A stretch of DNA of 64,000 bases from Afipia sp. P52-10 (GTDB lineage: Bacteria; Pseudomonadota; Alphaproteobacteria; Rhizobiales; Xanthobacteraceae), in contig NZ_AZSJ01000003.1 of the NCBI RefSeq assembly GCF_000516555.1, positions 2,384,814 to 2,448,813 of the forward strand, in the 5' to 3' direction. Positions 6,174 to 61,070 of the stretch are shown here, piece after piece. Numbering within the stretch: position 1 is the first letter of the stretch; each line of letters starts with the position of its first letter. Below the pieces are notes generated by a model. The model was not told the origin of the DNA, made no database searches, and saw only the letters and a program-made list of their open reading frames with translations. The translations under genes were made by a program, and so were the position numbers.

Positions 6174-6225
6174 TGATCCAGGTTCTTGATCCAAGGTCAT
6201 CATCCAGGTCCATCATCCGAGTCCA
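6174..6225. repeat. Degenerate 13-bp tandem repeat, four units, upstream of galU
   Basis: Four consecutive 13-mers: TGATCCAGGTTCT, TGATCCAAGGTCA, TCATCCAGGTCCA, TCATCCGAGTCCA. A fifth, truncated TCGCC follows. The array ends 33 bp before the galU start codon, inside what should be its promoter or leader. The units differ at 3-5 positions, so this is an aged or diverging array. Confidence 0.85.
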
Positions 6226-6258
6226 TCGCCTAACCGCCCTCGTTTCCGAAGAGATCTC

Positions 6259-11538: not shown

Positions 11539-11551
11539 GGCGTGATCCTTG

Positions 11552-11593
11552 TGCTACTATTTCAATAGCATTTGTGCTACATTTTCAGTAGCA
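11552..11593. promoter_or_regulatory. Two tandem 19-bp inverted repeats, likely HxlR operator
   Basis: Site 1 is TGCTACTATTTCAATAGCA (11552-11570). Site 2 is TGCTACATTTTCAGTAGCA (11575-11593). Each is an inverted repeat (TGCTA/TAGCA and TGCTAC/GTAGCA), and the two are offset by 23 bp, about two helical turns. They occupy the centre of the 70-bp gap between divergent starts at 11538 and 11609. This is the layout expected for autoregulation by the adjacent HxlR protein together with control of the CMD gene. Confidence 0.85.
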
Positions 11594-11608
11594 TTACAAG
11601 GAACGTTG

Positions 11609-14689: not shown

Positions 14690-15919
14690 GTGAAGGCGAG
14701 GGATGCCAAGGATGTCGAGACGGCGGTGCGCGACGCGATCGGCGCGGGCCAGCCGCTGGCGATCGTCGGCCACGGCACCAAGGCTGTGGTCGGCCACCGG
14801 ATGGCGACCAATGCGGTGCTGGACCTGTCGGCGCTGAACGCTGTCACCGCCTATGAGCCGAACGAACTGATCCTCACCGTGCAGGCGGGCGCGGCGCTCA
14901 GCGAAATCGTGCCGCTGCTCGCCGCCAAGAACCAGGAATTCGCATTCGAGCCCATGAACACCGCGGCGCTGCTCGGCACGCCGGAGGGCGCGGGCACCAT
15001 CGGCGGCATGATCGCGGCCGGGCTCGCCGGACCGCGGCGGGTCAAGGCCGGTGCCGCGCGCGATCACCTGCTGGGCATTTCAGCGGTGTCCGGCTTCGGC
15101 GAAAGCTTCAAGGCCGGTGGGCGGGTGGTGAAGAACGTCACCGGCTACGACCTCTGCAAGCTGGTCGCGGGCTCCTGGGGCACGCTGGCAGTGATGACTG
15201 AGGTGACGCTGAAGGTGATGCCGAAAGCCGAGAGCGAGACGACGCTGGTGCTGCGCGGTCTCGACGAGGGCACCGCCGTCCGGGCGATGGGGGTGGCGCT
15301 CGGCTCGCCCTATGATGTCTCCGCTGCCGCCCATGTTCCGGCGTCGTCGCTGCGGGCTGCCGGTGTGCTGGGTGATGGCGTAACGGCCGATTCGGCGCTG
15401 ACGCTGCTTCGCCTCGAAGGAATCGCCGCCTCGGTCGCTCATCGCGCGGAGACGTTGACGGCGGCGCTGGATGCGTTCGGGCCGCTGGAGCGGATCGACG
15501 GCGATCCATCGCGCCGGATTTGGGCGGCGATCCGCGATGTGACGCCGTTTGCCGCGTCGGGGCCGCTCGGCGCCTGGCCGGTCTGGCGCATCGTCTGTCC
15601 GCCGGCGGCGGGCGGTACGCTCGGCCAGCAGCTTGCGCGCGAGACCGGCGGCGACCTGATCTACGACTGGGGCGGCGGATTGATCTGGGCGGCGCTGCCG
15701 CCGGCGCAAGATGCTCATGCGGCATTGGTGCGCGCGCGCGTTGCGGCGAGCGGCGGCCATGCGACATTGATTCGCGCCAGCGATGCGGTGCGCGCGGCGG
15801 TGGATGTGTTCCATCCGCTCGATGCGGGCGTCGCGGCGCTGACGGCGCGGGTGAAGGCGGCCTTCGATCCGTCCGACGTGTTCAACCGCGGACGACTCAC
15901 GCGGGCGGGGGCACGATGA
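14690..15919 (+). CDS. glcE: Glycolate oxidase subunit GlcE
   Basis: 409 aa from GTG 14690, which has GGAG 9 bp upstream. The alternative start at 14636 adds 18 residues that do not resemble the start of GlcE as I know it. It carries the FAD-binding region LAIVGHGTKAVVGHR and the PEGAGTIGGMIAAGLAGPRR segment, then GGRVVKNVTGYDLCKLVAGS, all typical of GlcE. It is needed with GlcD for glycolate oxidation. Its TGA overlaps the glcF ATG (ATGA, 15916-15919), indicating translational coupling. Confidence 0.93.
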   Translation: MKARDAKDVETAVRDAIGAGQPLAIVGHGTKAVVGHRMATNAVLDLSALNAVTAYEPNELILTVQAGAALSEIVPLLAAKNQEFAFEPMNTAALLGTPEGAGTIGGMIAAGLAGPRRVKAGAARDHLLGISAVSGFGESFKAGGRVVKNVTGYDLCKLVAGSWGTLAVMTEVTLKVMPKAESETTLVLRGLDEGTAVRAMGVALGSPYDVSAAAHVPASSLRAAGVLGDGVTADSALTLLRLEGIAASVAHRAETLTAALDAFGPLERIDGDPSRRIWAAIRDVTPFAASGPLGAWPVWRIVCPPAAGGTLGQQLARETGGDLIYDWGGGLIWAALPPAQDAHAALVRARVAASGGHATLIRASDAVRAAVDVFHPLDAGVAALTARVKAAFDPSDVFNRGRLTRAGAR

Positions 15920-17283
15920 AGACCGAATTCACCCTGGAACAGCTTGCCGACCCGAACATCCGCGAGGCCGACAAGATCCTGCGCGCTTGCGTGCATTGTG
16001 GCTTCTGCACCGCTACCTGCCCGACCTACGTGCTGCTCGGCGACGAGCTCGATAGCCCGCGCGGCCGCATCTACCTGATAAAGGAGATGCTGGAGAAGAA
16101 CCAGGCGCCGACCGCCAACGTGGTCAAGCATGTGGACCGCTGCCTGTCGTGTCTCGCCTGCATGACGACCTGCCCGTCGGGGGTGAACTACATGCACCTG
16201 GTGGACCAGGCGCGGGTCCGGATCGCCGAGCAGTATGTGCGGCCGCTCAGCGAACGGCTGCTGCGGTCGGTGCTGGCATGGGTGCTGCCCCGGCCGGAGC
16301 TGTTTCGTCTCAGCCTCGCGCTCGCGCGCATCGGCCGGCCGTTCGCGAGCCTGCTGCTGCCGGGGGAGAAGGGCGATCCGGCCAATCCGTCTTTCCTCAG
16401 GCGGATCAAGGCGATGCTGTCGCTTGCCCCGTCCCGTTTGCCGCAGCGATCCGCTCGAGCCGGCACGGTGTTTCCGCCGCAGGGCGACCATCAGGAGAAG
16501 CCTCGCGGCCGCGTCGCATTGCTGCAGGGCTGTGCCCAGCAGGTGCTCTCGCCCGGCATCAACGACGCGGCGATCCGCGTGCTGACGCGGCATGGCATCG
16601 CGGTTGCCTTGGTCAAGGACGAGCAGTGCTGCGGGGCGCTGACCCATCACATGGGCAACGATCATGCCGCGCTCGCCAGCGCCCGCGCCAACATCGATGC
16701 CTGGATCGCGGAGGCAGACGCGCATGGCCTGGATGCGATCCTTGTCACCACATCGGGCTGCGGCACGGTGATCAAAGACTACGGCTACATGCTGCGCGAG
16801 GACAAAGCCTATGCGGCGAAGGCTGCGCGGGTGTCGGCGATGGCGAAGGACATCACCGAGTATCTTGCGGAACTCGATCTGTCGTTTCCCACGACGCGCA
16901 GTGATCTTGTCGTCGCCTACCATGCGGCCTGTTCGCTACAGCACGGGCAAAAGATTCTGCGTGCTCCGAAAGAATTGCTTTTCAAAAGTGGCTTCGTGGT
17001 GAAAGATGTGCCCGAAGGTCATTTGTGTTGTGGCTCGGCGGGCACCTACAACATCCTCCAGCCCGACATTGCGGAGAGATTGCGCGAGCGGAAGATCTCC
17101 AACATCGCAACCTTGAAGCCGGATGTGATCGCCGCCGGCAATATCGGATGCATGGTGCAGATCTCCGGTGCGACGGACGAGCGGGGCAACCCGCTGCCGG
17201 TGGTGCACACGATCGAACTTGTGGACTGGGCAACAGGAGGACCGAAGCCGAACATCGGGAGTGAAGCTTTAGGCGGGCGCTGA
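15916..17283 (+). CDS. glcF: Glycolate oxidase iron-sulfur subunit GlcF
   Basis: 455 aa. It transfers electrons from GlcD/GlcE to the quinone pool. Two [4Fe-4S] motifs are present near the N-terminus: CVHCGFCTATCP (about residues 24-35) and CLSCLACMTTCP (about 76-87). Two CCG domains follow, with EQCCGALTHH and HLCCGSAGTYN. The start is the ATG overlapping the glcE stop; the open frame further upstream is glcE in another frame. It is the last gene of the operon, and the next 520 bp are non-coding. Confidence 0.96.
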   Translation: MKTEFTLEQLADPNIREADKILRACVHCGFCTATCPTYVLLGDELDSPRGRIYLIKEMLEKNQAPTANVVKHVDRCLSCLACMTTCPSGVNYMHLVDQARVRIAEQYVRPLSERLLRSVLAWVLPRPELFRLSLALARIGRPFASLLLPGEKGDPANPSFLRRIKAMLSLAPSRLPQRSARAGTVFPPQGDHQEKPRGRVALLQGCAQQVLSPGINDAAIRVLTRHGIAVALVKDEQCCGALTHHMGNDHAALASARANIDAWIAEADAHGLDAILVTTSGCGTVIKDYGYMLREDKAYAAKAARVSAMAKDITEYLAELDLSFPTTRSDLVVAYHAACSLQHGQKILRAPKELLFKSGFVVKDVPEGHLCCGSAGTYNILQPDIAERLRERKISNIATLKPDVIAAGNIGCMVQISGATDERGNPLPVVHTIELVDWATGGPKPNIGSEALGGR

Positions 17284-17807
17284 CTGACGGATGATTGGCC
17301 AGGCGTCGTACGGGGATCGTGCTGGGGGTGGCCAAGCATACAGCTTCGATCTCACAGAGGATCTGGCAAAGATCCTGCATTCTGACGCTGCTGGATTGGA
17401 TCTGCATCGTGGCGGCCCGAGTCTTGGTCCAAGATTCTCGGTTCAAGGTTCTCGGTTCAAGATTCTCGGTTCAAATCTCTCGGCCCGAATTTCTTGCCCT
17501 GAGTCCCTAGGCCAGAGCCTCTTAGCCTGCGTTTCTTGGCCCGTGTGTCTTGGCCCGTGTGTCTTGGCCCGTGTGTGTCTTGGCCCGTGTGTGTCTTGGC
17601 CCCAGCATCGTGGGTTTGCCCAGTGGGCCACAAGGAAGGCCGCGATCAACGGGTCGCGGCGATAACTGCAGCGACAAAATGACTGCAGATGATGCGATCG
17701 TGGGTGGTGCGTTTCAGAAGGTAGCGCGTTTCAGATGATCAGGGGCACGGCGCGATCATGCGGACGGGATGAGCCGATCCGGATCGACGGCAACAGGAGA
17801 AGGGTGA
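17284..17807. other. Non-coding region dominated by a tandem array
   Basis: No convincing gene lies between glcF and the H1-like gene. An open frame that crosses most of it exists only because the 14-bp repeat lacks stops. The last 200 bp before 17808 hold a CGCGGC-rich stretch and the GGAGAAGGG ribosome site of the H1-like gene (about 17796-17804). No T-tailed glcF terminator was found. Confidence 0.7.
17431..17602. repeat. Degenerate 14-bp tandem repeat, 12 units
   Basis: Twelve head-to-tail units start at 17431. The left part reads AAGATTCTCGGTTC, AAGGTTCTCGGTTC, AAGATTCTCGGTTC. The middle is diverged (GAATTTCTTGCCCT, GAGTCCCTAGGCCA, GAGCCTCTTAGCCT). The right part is homogeneous GTGTGTCTTGGCCC, where the last two units gain an extra GT (16 bp). 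The gradient suggests local duplication at both ends around an old core. Confidence 0.92.
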
Positions 17808-18164
17808 ATGGCTAAGAAGGCGAAGAAAGCGAAAGCAAAGAAGTCGAAGAAGGCAAAAAAGGTCGTCGTTGCCAAAAAGAAGAAGGGCGCGAAGGCCGCC
17901 GCCAAGCGATCGGCGAAGAAGAGCGTAAAGAAGTCGGCCAAGAAGGCGGGTAAGAAAACCGCAAAGAAGGCTGCGAAGAAGGCTGCCAGAAAGTCCGGTC
18001 CGTCAGCCGCAAAGAAGGCCGCTCCCAAGAAGAAGGCCGCCAAGAGGACGTCGGCGCCGCGTAAGCCGCCAACTGCTCCGGCTCCGGTCGAGACCCCGCA
18101 GCCGGCGCCCGCTTGGACCCCGCCGCCAATGGGTGGCTCCGATTCCGGCGATGAGACGCGCTGA
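17808..18164 (+). CDS. Histone H1-like Lys/Ala-rich DNA-binding protein
   Basis: 118 aa. Residues 1-85 are almost entirely Lys and Ala, with repeated KKAAKKAA-type blocks (KKAGKKTAKKAAKKAARKSG). A Pro-rich stretch follows, then a short acidic end (GSDSGDETR). This matches bacterial H1-like proteins that coat DNA through Lys-rich tails. The composition is low-complexity, so homology by sequence is weak, and an RNA-binding role is equally possible. A good ribosome site precedes ATG 17808. It stands alone, flanked by two tandem-repeat arrays. Confidence 0.85.
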   Translation: MAKKAKKAKAKKSKKAKKVVVAKKKKGAKAAAKRSAKKSVKKSAKKAGKKTAKKAAKKAARKSGPSAAKKAAPKKKAAKRTSAPRKPPTAPAPVETPQPAPAWTPPPMGGSDSGDETR

Positions 18165-18193
18165 AGCGCACTGGGGTCAAAGCGCACGAGCAT

Positions 18194-18229
18194 AGAGCGC
18201 GATGGGGTTCGAACGAACCCTCGCGCTCT
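18194..18229 (+). terminator. Large stem-loop after H1-like gene
   Basis: AGAGCGCGA (18194-18202) pairs perfectly with TCGCGCTCT (18221-18229). Inside, GGGTTC pairs with GAACCC around GAAC. It lies 30 bp after the H1-like stop. There is no T-run, so it may be a processing or dispersed element rather than an intrinsic terminator. Confidence 0.5.
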
Positions 18230-18319
18230 GGCGTGGTGATGAGCGGAGCAAAGCGGCCTCGCTTAGGTCTTCTGCGCCACGCGCGCCGACACAATCAGGA
18301 CGATGGTCGCAGGGAAGAT

Positions 18320-18345
18320 CGCGGCGGGTGCATCACCCCGCCGCG
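18320..18345. other. GC-rich inverted repeat
   Basis: CGCGGCGGG (18320-18328) and CCCGCCGCG (18337-18345) are perfect arms around an 8-base loop TGCATCAC. No adjacent gene explains it. Confidence 0.6.
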
Positions 18346-18404
18346 GACCTGATCCCGCGAGACGGCGACCGCGACGGTGGCCCGACGGCCGATTGCGGTC
18401 TCTC

Positions 18405-18500
18405 TGTCTTTGGGTCCTTGGTTTTGAGGCCACTTGGTTTTGAGGACCCATGGTTTTGGGGACTCGTGTCCTTTCGGATCCTTGTCTCCTGGGATTTCTC
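18405..18500. repeat. Degenerate 16-bp tandem repeat, six units
   Basis: Six 16-mers run without gaps: TGTCTTTGGGTCCTTG, GTTTTGAGGCCACTTG, GTTTTGAGGACCCATG, GTTTTGGGGACTCGTG, TCCTTTCGGATCCTTG, TCTCCTGGGATTTCTC. The three central units are the most alike. It is unrelated in period to the 14-bp array on the other side of the H1-like gene but shares T-rich/GG composition and a CTTG motif. Confidence 0.85.
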
Positions 18501-30280: not shown

Positions 30281-30344
30281 GACTGCAAGGTGGCCTTGCA
30301 GTCTCAACTTGCGGTCCAACTCGCAGTCCAAGGCGCAGTCCAAG
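30281..30344. repeat. Perfect hairpin merging into a 12-13-bp tandem array
   Basis: GACTGCAAGG (30281-30290) and CCTTGCAGTC (30294-30303) are perfect arms around TGG. The right arm is also the first unit of an array: TTGCAGTCTCAAC, TTGCGGTCCAAC, TCGCAGTCCAAG, GCGCAGTCCAAG (30296-30344). It lies 80 bp upstream of the MFS gene. Confidence 0.85.
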
Positions 30345-30423
30345 GCTGGGAATCAGCACGCCCGTTTGTTAAAGCGCGATGGCCGTCATGGCCGTTTGAG
30401 CATGGCGAACCGTTTGCAAGGCC

Positions 30424-59622: not shown

Positions 59623-59684
59623 GGCGCTCGCATGATCGTATGTTGACCCGGCGCCATAAGATCATGCTGCGCGCGTAAAAGCCA

Positions 59685-59743
59685 CTCAGCCTTAAAGCCC
59701 TCAGCCTTGGTCGCTCAGCCCTTGGTCATTTAGCCTTCGGTCA
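59685..59743. repeat. Degenerate 14-15-bp tandem repeat over the pgi stop codon
   Basis: Plus-strand units are CTCAGCCTTAAAGCC, CTCAGCCTTGGTCG, CTCAGCCCTTGGTCA and TTTAGCCTTCGGTCA. The last is the end of pgi itself. In the coding direction pgi ends GTG-ACC-GAA-GGC-TAA and is followed in frame by ATG-ACC-AAG-GGC-TGA. The array therefore duplicates the last five codons. Confidence 0.85.
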
Positions 59744-61070
59744 CGTAGCGCTTGGCGAGCACCTTGCCTTCCTCGACCGCCGGCTGGTCGAACGCATCGA
59801 CGCCGAGCAGCTTCGAGGCGATCATCGTTTCCAGCATGTAGTGCATCAGCAGTTCGCCCATCGCCGCCTCGTCGACGGTCTCGATGTGGAAGGTCCGCAC
59901 CGGGCAGCCGTTCTTGGCGAGCGTCTCGGCCGTGGCTCGGCCTTGTGCGGCGACGAGATCGCCGATGGTCTTGCCGGCGAAGTCGCCCTCGCCGCAGAGC
60001 GCGGTGAGATCGGCCGGCATGCGCAGGCCCTTGCCCTTGGCGCCGACGGTGATGATGGTGAACAGCTTGTCGCGCGGGCCGGAGATGAAGAGTTGCAACT
60101 GGCTGTGCTGATCGACCGGGCCGAGGGCCGCGAGTGGCGTGGTGCCTTCGCCGTCCTTGCCGAGGCTCTCGGCCCAGAGCTGCACATACCACTTGGCGAG
60201 CCAGGCGAGCCGGTCGGCATACGGCATCAGCACGGTGATGGTTTTGCCGGTGTTGGCGAGCGCGATCGACAGCGCCGCGCCCACCGCGGCCGGCACTTCG
60301 GCGGCCGGCTTCTTGGCGAGCACCGGCGCGACGGCCTTCGCAGCGCCGGCGCGGATCGCAGCGATATCGAGACCCGCCACGGCCGCCGGCAGCAGGCCGA
60401 CATTGGTCAGCACCGAGAAACGGCCACCGATACCGGTGTGGTGATCGAGCATCGGCACCTTGAAGTGCTCCAGCATGGTGCGCAGGCCGTTCTTGCCGCC
60501 GGGCTTGGCCGGTTCCGACAGGCCGAGCACCAGCTCGGGAATCTTCTTCTCCAGGCCGGCACGGCGGAGCGACTCAAGCACGGCCATCGTCTGCATCAAT
60601 GTTTCGCCGGTGCCGCCGGATTTCGAGATCGCGACGAACTTGGTGGTCGCGAGCGGCAGCTTGCCGAGCATCTCGGTGAAGGTCTGCGGATCGAGATTGT
60701 CGAGGAAGTGCAGCCGCGGCTTGTCGCGCAGCGTGCCGATACCGGGCACGTTGTGTCCGGCGAGTTGCAGCAGCGTCTGACCGCCGAGGCTGGAGCCGCC
60801 GGTACCGAGAAACACGACATCGGTCGCGCCGTTGCGCAGTTTCGCGGCAGCGTCTTCGATCGCCGCCAGATCGCTGCGCTCCTGCGGAATCGTCAGGTGC
60901 GGCAGGCTGCCGTCGGCGTAACCTGCGCGGAGCCAGTCGAGCGCGGGCTCCGTCTGCTTCAGCATCGCGTCATATGTCTGTTCTGTGACGCCATGGCTGC
61001 CGATGCGTTCGGAACGCGCAAGCGCGATCGATTGCTCAAGCGAGGAGGCAGCTTTCGGAGAATCCAGCAT
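59730..61070 (-). CDS. pgi: Glucose-6-phosphate isomerase
   Basis: 446 aa from ATG 61070 with AGGAAG 8 bp upstream; a TTG at 61091 is the alternative. It interconverts glucose 6-phosphate and fructose 6-phosphate. Signatures: GTGGSSLGGQTLLQLAG, SKSGGTGETLMQ, GIGGRFSVLTNVGLLPA and FDQPAVEEGK near the C-terminus. It is shorter than the 549-aa E. coli enzyme, in line with the shorter subtype of PGI. The stop lies in a tandem repeat. Confidence 0.95.
   Translation of the reverse strand: MLDSPKAASSLEQSIALARSERIGSHGVTEQTYDAMLKQTEPALDWLRAGYADGSLPHLTIPQERSDLAAIEDAAAKLRNGATDVVFLGTGGSSLGGQTLLQLAGHNVPGIGTLRDKPRLHFLDNLDPQTFTEMLGKLPLATTKFVAISKSGGTGETLMQTMAVLESLRRAGLEKKIPELVLGLSEPAKPGGKNGLRTMLEHFKVPMLDHHTGIGGRFSVLTNVGLLPAAVAGLDIAAIRAGAAKAVAPVLAKKPAAEVPAAVGAALSIALANTGKTITVLMPYADRLAWLAKWYVQLWAESLGKDGEGTTPLAALGPVDQHSQLQLFISGPRDKLFTIITVGAKGKGLRMPADLTALCGEGDFAGKTIGDLVAAQGRATAETLAKNGCPVRTFHIETVDEAAMGELLMHYMLETMIASKLLGVDAFDQPAVEEGKVLAKRYVTEG

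Follow-up and report, generated by a model that had tools for sequence, protein, structure and literature searches.

The spacer between glcF and an H1-like open reading frame (ORF) carries a tandem array of short head-to-tail units. We consider it highly probable that this array is a young non-coding minisatellite, most likely functionless itself, that was born by duplication and then grew by slippage. Dozens of arrays were sampled in this Bradyrhizobium-related genome, every one with a sequence of its own, and this is the strongest of them; it therefore resembles a by-product of the DNA copying or repair of this lineage and not a gene or a switch. The single array is ordinary in kind; more interesting are the population to which it belongs and the narrow size range of that population. 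Coordinates without a locus name refer to the window, which is the whole stretch of 64,000 nucleotides that was analysed.

Anatomy of the array and its neighbourhood

The array, its parts and its neighbours are as follows.

15916–17283, plus strand: glcF, glycolate oxidase iron-sulfur subunit, the upstream neighbour (NCBIfam NF008434 (GlcF), 448 bits; cut-off 333)
17284–17807, no strand: the glcF–H1 spacer holding the array, 524 bp
17422–17602, no strand: the whole tandem array, a 9-bp leading partial unit and twelve units of 14 or 16 bp
17422–17477, no strand: left block, four units of the TCTYGGTYCAAGAT type, from the unit identity matrix (Tandem Repeats Finder (TRF) score 87)
17478–17533, no strand: eroded middle, four units, in which 7–10 of 14 positions match neighbouring units
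17534–17602, no strand: right block, five exact TCTTGGCCC cores (TRF score 106)
17808–18164, plus strand: lysine-rich H1-like ORF, the downstream neighbour

The original prediction described twelve units of 14 bp that arose by repeated local duplication, and both parts of this description were borne out. Positions 17431–17602 (172 bp) parse into ten units of 14 bp and two of 16 bp, all in the phase NNNNN-TCTYGGYYC, and the two blocks and the growth by GT were confirmed. A 9-bp partial unit, TCTTGGTCC, lies at 17422–17430 directly ahead of the twelve full units; it belongs to the array, and the bounds are therefore better set at 17422–17602. The left-block units are of the TCTCGGTTCAAGAT type. 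In the right block, the spacers between cores read, in order, GTGTG, GTGTG, GTGTGTG and GTGTGTG, so that the last two are longer by GT. The second half of the core in the left block is unlike that in the right block, and TCTYGG is the best-preserved part of the unit within the eroded middle.

In support of local duplication, the units fall into blocks of identity, and the TRF scores of the left and right blocks (87 and 106) far exceed those of shuffled sequence, the top score among 200 dinucleotide shuffles of the spacer being 42. The array fits a minisatellite in its twelve head-to-tail units of 14–16 bp, which lie in the range of roughly 10–60 bp, in a self-similarity above chance (106 versus a shuffle maximum of 42), and in having no conserved coding sequence behind the repeat. 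Four terminator-like matches were found versus 1.5 expected, none of them inside the array. The RNA structure z-scores were −1.77 on the plus strand and −2.97 on the minus strand; tandem self-complementary units such as TCTTGGTCCAAGA could yield such values, and we therefore draw no inference from them. The H1-like ORF had no match in Pfam or NCBIfam.

The same spacer in related genomes

An H1-like ORF, identified in relatives by a simple lysine-count rule, came next after glcF in 79 of the 80 relatives fetched. In Bradyrhizobium sp. LHD-71, the sole congener compared, the spacer measures 129 bp, versus 524 bp here, and contains no array; recognizable conservation between the two spacers is limited to the final 70 bp before the H1-like start. 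Further relatives have either a short spacer with no array or an unrelated unit at this place.

A second 14-bp unit, CCTGACGCAACGTG or a close variant of it, occupies the spacer of other Bradyrhizobium. It is present in one copy in B. pachyrhizi and B. embrapense (L076, L138), in two copies in B. uaiense (L078), in three copies at L083, L092 and L117, and in four copies in B. macuxiense BR 10355 (L084), and its flanks are nearly identical across the 1- to 4-copy species. The birth and growth of an array are thus visible across species. As the CCTGACGCAACGTG unit is unrelated to that of the window array, 14-bp arrays have arisen and grown in the glcF–H1 spacer on at least two independent occasions. 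The array had also been predicted to be mutable; this has only indirect support, from comparisons between species, through its absence from the congener and the copy ladder of the other 14-bp unit.

These comparisons also bear on what the array might do. One possibility, which we consider unlikely, is that it acts in cis, with a protein binding to the TCTTGGCCC/TCTCGGTTC core ahead of the H1-like gene, whose expression would be tuned by the number of copies. The position of the array, about 200 bp ahead of the H1-like start, the preservation of TCTYGG among the eroded middle units and the over-representation of CAAG/CTTG among the array units of this genome (described below) would all be consistent with such a role. 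However, the congener lacks the array despite keeping glcF, the H1-like gene and the final 70 bp before its start, and the spacers of the other relatives are array-less or hold an unrelated unit. Moreover, no sigma-70-like promoter was found in 17200–18500 at the consensus settings used, and the core differs in its second half between the left and right blocks.

It is less probable still, indeed very improbable, that the array is what remains of a dispersed element, mobile or palindromic (MITE-like or REP-like), which carried a minisatellite and had entered the longer spacer of this species. Relative to the congener, the spacer has about 400 bp extra, more than the array alone accounts for, and a minisatellite inside a MITE is known from Porphyromonas gingivalis (PMC4596501). 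Nevertheless, nowhere else in the genome does any stretch of the spacer recur above chance (best other match, E 0.015), which led us to reject a dispersed element, and no Rfam family matched in the window, on which ground a known RNA was rejected too. A unit common to several genomes was also rejected, because pairs of TCTTGGCCC, with one mismatch allowed, were confined to 3 of 150 family genomes, of which this is one, and were no commoner than a reversed control pattern.

That the repeat encodes protein, either by itself or as part of a small protein, can practically be discounted: frames are open across the array on both strands (17291–17665, plus; 17443–17649, minus), but the 124-residue plus-strand frame, which the protein search covered, belongs to no Pfam family and, in 150 family genomes, matches elsewhere only another 14-bp array, through a stop codon, the array DNA is missing in the congener, and a 14-bp period rotates the frame, with the 16-bp units altering the rotation. 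The missing family and the absence of the array DNA from LHD-71 agree with the prediction that the array is non-coding. The other array matched by this frame lies in a family genome (G156; L264, 1499–1615) and consists of eight copies of the 14-bp unit AATACACTTGGGCC just upstream of a start codon; it has the same period and a CTTGG core and is otherwise unrelated to the window array.

A population of short tandem duplications

We surveyed a 1.24-Mb sample of the same genome, with genes called by a simple hexamer model, and counted an intergenic tandem duplication wherever 11 or more of 12 positions matched at a given lag. The first 844 kb held 46 duplications at lags of 14–18 versus 1.2 in shuffles, 14 at lags of 12–13 versus 1.4, and 2 at lags of 5–8 versus 1.8. 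Once 400 kb more had been added, the most frequent lag was 15 (21 cases). The whole sample held 67 arrays with a period of 11–20 and a TRF score of at least 45, the unit differing at nearly every site, and the glcF–H1 array had the top score among them; some of these intergenic arrays may sit in uncalled genes, because the gene calls were crude and the model missed the H1-like gene itself. Spacer orientation made little difference: per 100 kb, duplications of 12–20 bp numbered 50 in tandem, 40 in divergent and 36 in convergent spacers, and we dropped the idea of a position bias.

Several relatives carry such duplications as well. Per 100 kb of intergenic DNA, those at lags of 14–18 numbered 33 here, 23 in the congener, 23 in G025 and 13 in G020, 20 in G055, which belongs to another family, and 0–9 in G014, G026 and G028, a ranking that is rough because it rests on small samples from single relatives. 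An Escherichia coli control gave 3 duplications at these lags in 37 kb of roughly called intergenic DNA, a number too small to yield a firm rate. The original prediction held that no established family of the clade explains the array; this found no support, as intergenic duplications of about 12–18 bp are common here and present in several relatives. Our searches of the open-access literature yielded no account of a population of this kind in the clade.

Within the window, further tandem arrays of this intergenic population have a 16-bp unit, CTTGGTTTTGAGGACA (18417–18463, just past the H1-like gene), a 15-bp unit, CTCAGCCCTTGGTCG (59678–59755), a 13-bp unit, ATCCAAGTCCATC (6174–6227), and a 12-bp unit, GCAGTCCAACTC (30298–30346).

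Repeats of other kinds were also seen. Two tandem inverted repeats of the form TGCTAC-N-GTAGCA (window 11549–11595; L167, 11605–11653) look like a conserved operator and not a minisatellite, because a similar, diverged pair occurs in the congener. Outside the window, the same genome has a CRISPR array with the 36-bp repeat AGAATAGCTAGTTAGAGATCGTGGTCTAGCGGCAAC (L145, 7740–8634). In the congener, a 36-bp unit with the inverted repeat GCCGTTCGAAGAACGGC is a dispersed palindromic repeat family and is found in three tandem copies per site (L164, 523–630; L177, 3000–3107).

The duplications turn over between species. At 134 alignable spacers of this genome and the congener, no duplication of 12–20 bp was common to both, and at three of them the two genomes had different arrays. 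The summed length of the aligned spacers was 64.7 kb in this genome versus 46.0 kb in the congener.

The junctions of these duplications show little homology. Among 39 near-perfect two-copy duplications (unit 10–30 bp, pooled over all genomes sampled), the match run exceeded the unit by at most 3 bp in 37, with a mode of 0. This is close to the distribution from simulated blunt duplication in random sequence, in which 56% of cases had no excess, 28% had 1 bp and 11% had 2 bp. Slippage between pre-existing direct repeats would give longer overlaps than those found. The founding event of the glcF–H1 array itself is no longer readable, and the low junction homology is that of the pooled two-copy duplications.

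The units of this genome also showed a sequence preference. CAAG/CTTG occurred in 24 of the 67 array units, versus about 9 expected from random intergenic DNA or composition shuffles, and ranked first among 4-mers in both tests; its enrichment was borderline when set against dinucleotide shuffles (z = 3.62; 95% of null maxima, 3.58). No such enrichment was seen in 25 arrays of other genomes. We regard this preference as a lead and not as a result. It could mark a site where breaks form preferentially or a binding site, or be peculiar to one genome. It would be unexpected if all sequences were equally prone to duplicate, and it counts against our best explanation.

Origin of the array and comparison with known systems

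We propose that the minisatellite began when about 14 bp of the glcF–H1 spacer was doubled head to tail, a step that would need no prior repeat. This could have occurred through a staggered break followed by fill-in and end joining (Ku, LigD), or through a polymerase restarting slightly upstream of its stopping point. Slippage or unequal exchange between the copies would then have added units in at least two bouts, yielding the left block and later the right one, and may also have inserted GT within GTGTG; point mutation would have eroded the middle units. The block gradient fits two separate expansions, with the right the more recent and the middle decaying. The same process may operate at many intergenic sites of this genome; because it would act on local sequence each time, units would vary by site and be lost or replaced between species. 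In this scheme we infer the enzymes, the order of events in the array and its neutrality, whereas the anatomy, the absence from the congener, the size preference across the genome, the site-specific units, the lack of shared duplications at orthologous spacers, the near-zero junction homology and the copy ladder in relatives were observed.

This genome has genes for Ku and LigD, but so do relatives with few arrays, and end joining therefore does not stand out as the route. We rejected Ku/LigD as the cause of the high array density, because their presence fails to separate rich from poor genomes. That Ku-dependent fill-in joining is the duplication route in these bacteria is a guess by analogy.

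It is conceivable, although rather doubtful, that the lineage has a size-selective, homology-independent process that repeatedly doubles segments of about 15 bp in tandem, perhaps with a preference for CTTG/CAAG; the glcF–H1 array would be the strongest of its products sampled. If so, the narrow size would report a physical step, such as paired-nick spacing or a polymerase or end-joining footprint. The population offers dozens of candidate typing loci. It also makes it testable why intergenic duplications are mostly 12–18 bp with no junction homology, and whether bacterial Ku/LigD produces such duplications.

Among known systems, the array resembles the bacterial minisatellites, or VNTR loci, used for MLVA typing in having short head-to-tail units in a spacer, in being degenerate and homogenized in blocks, and in being missing from a related species. 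It differs in that the evidence for unit number here lies between species, with one genome per species, and its 14-bp unit is at the short end of the minisatellite range. In mammalian cells, fill-in and Ku-dependent end joining gives homology-independent small tandem duplications with the involvement of Pol alpha-primase and CST (PMC8355091). The two-copy duplications pooled here likewise consist of exact tandem copies whose junctions have little or no homology, and Ku and LigD genes are present in this genome, whereas the mammalian process was shown in eukaryotic cells with overhangs of at least 43 nt, versus units of 12–18 bp here. The palindromic units of E. coli (REP/PU) are dispersed intergenic repeats (PMC2884548) and share with these arrays an intergenic place within a bacterial genome; they form one family spread genome-wide, whereas the unit of each array here is specific to its site.
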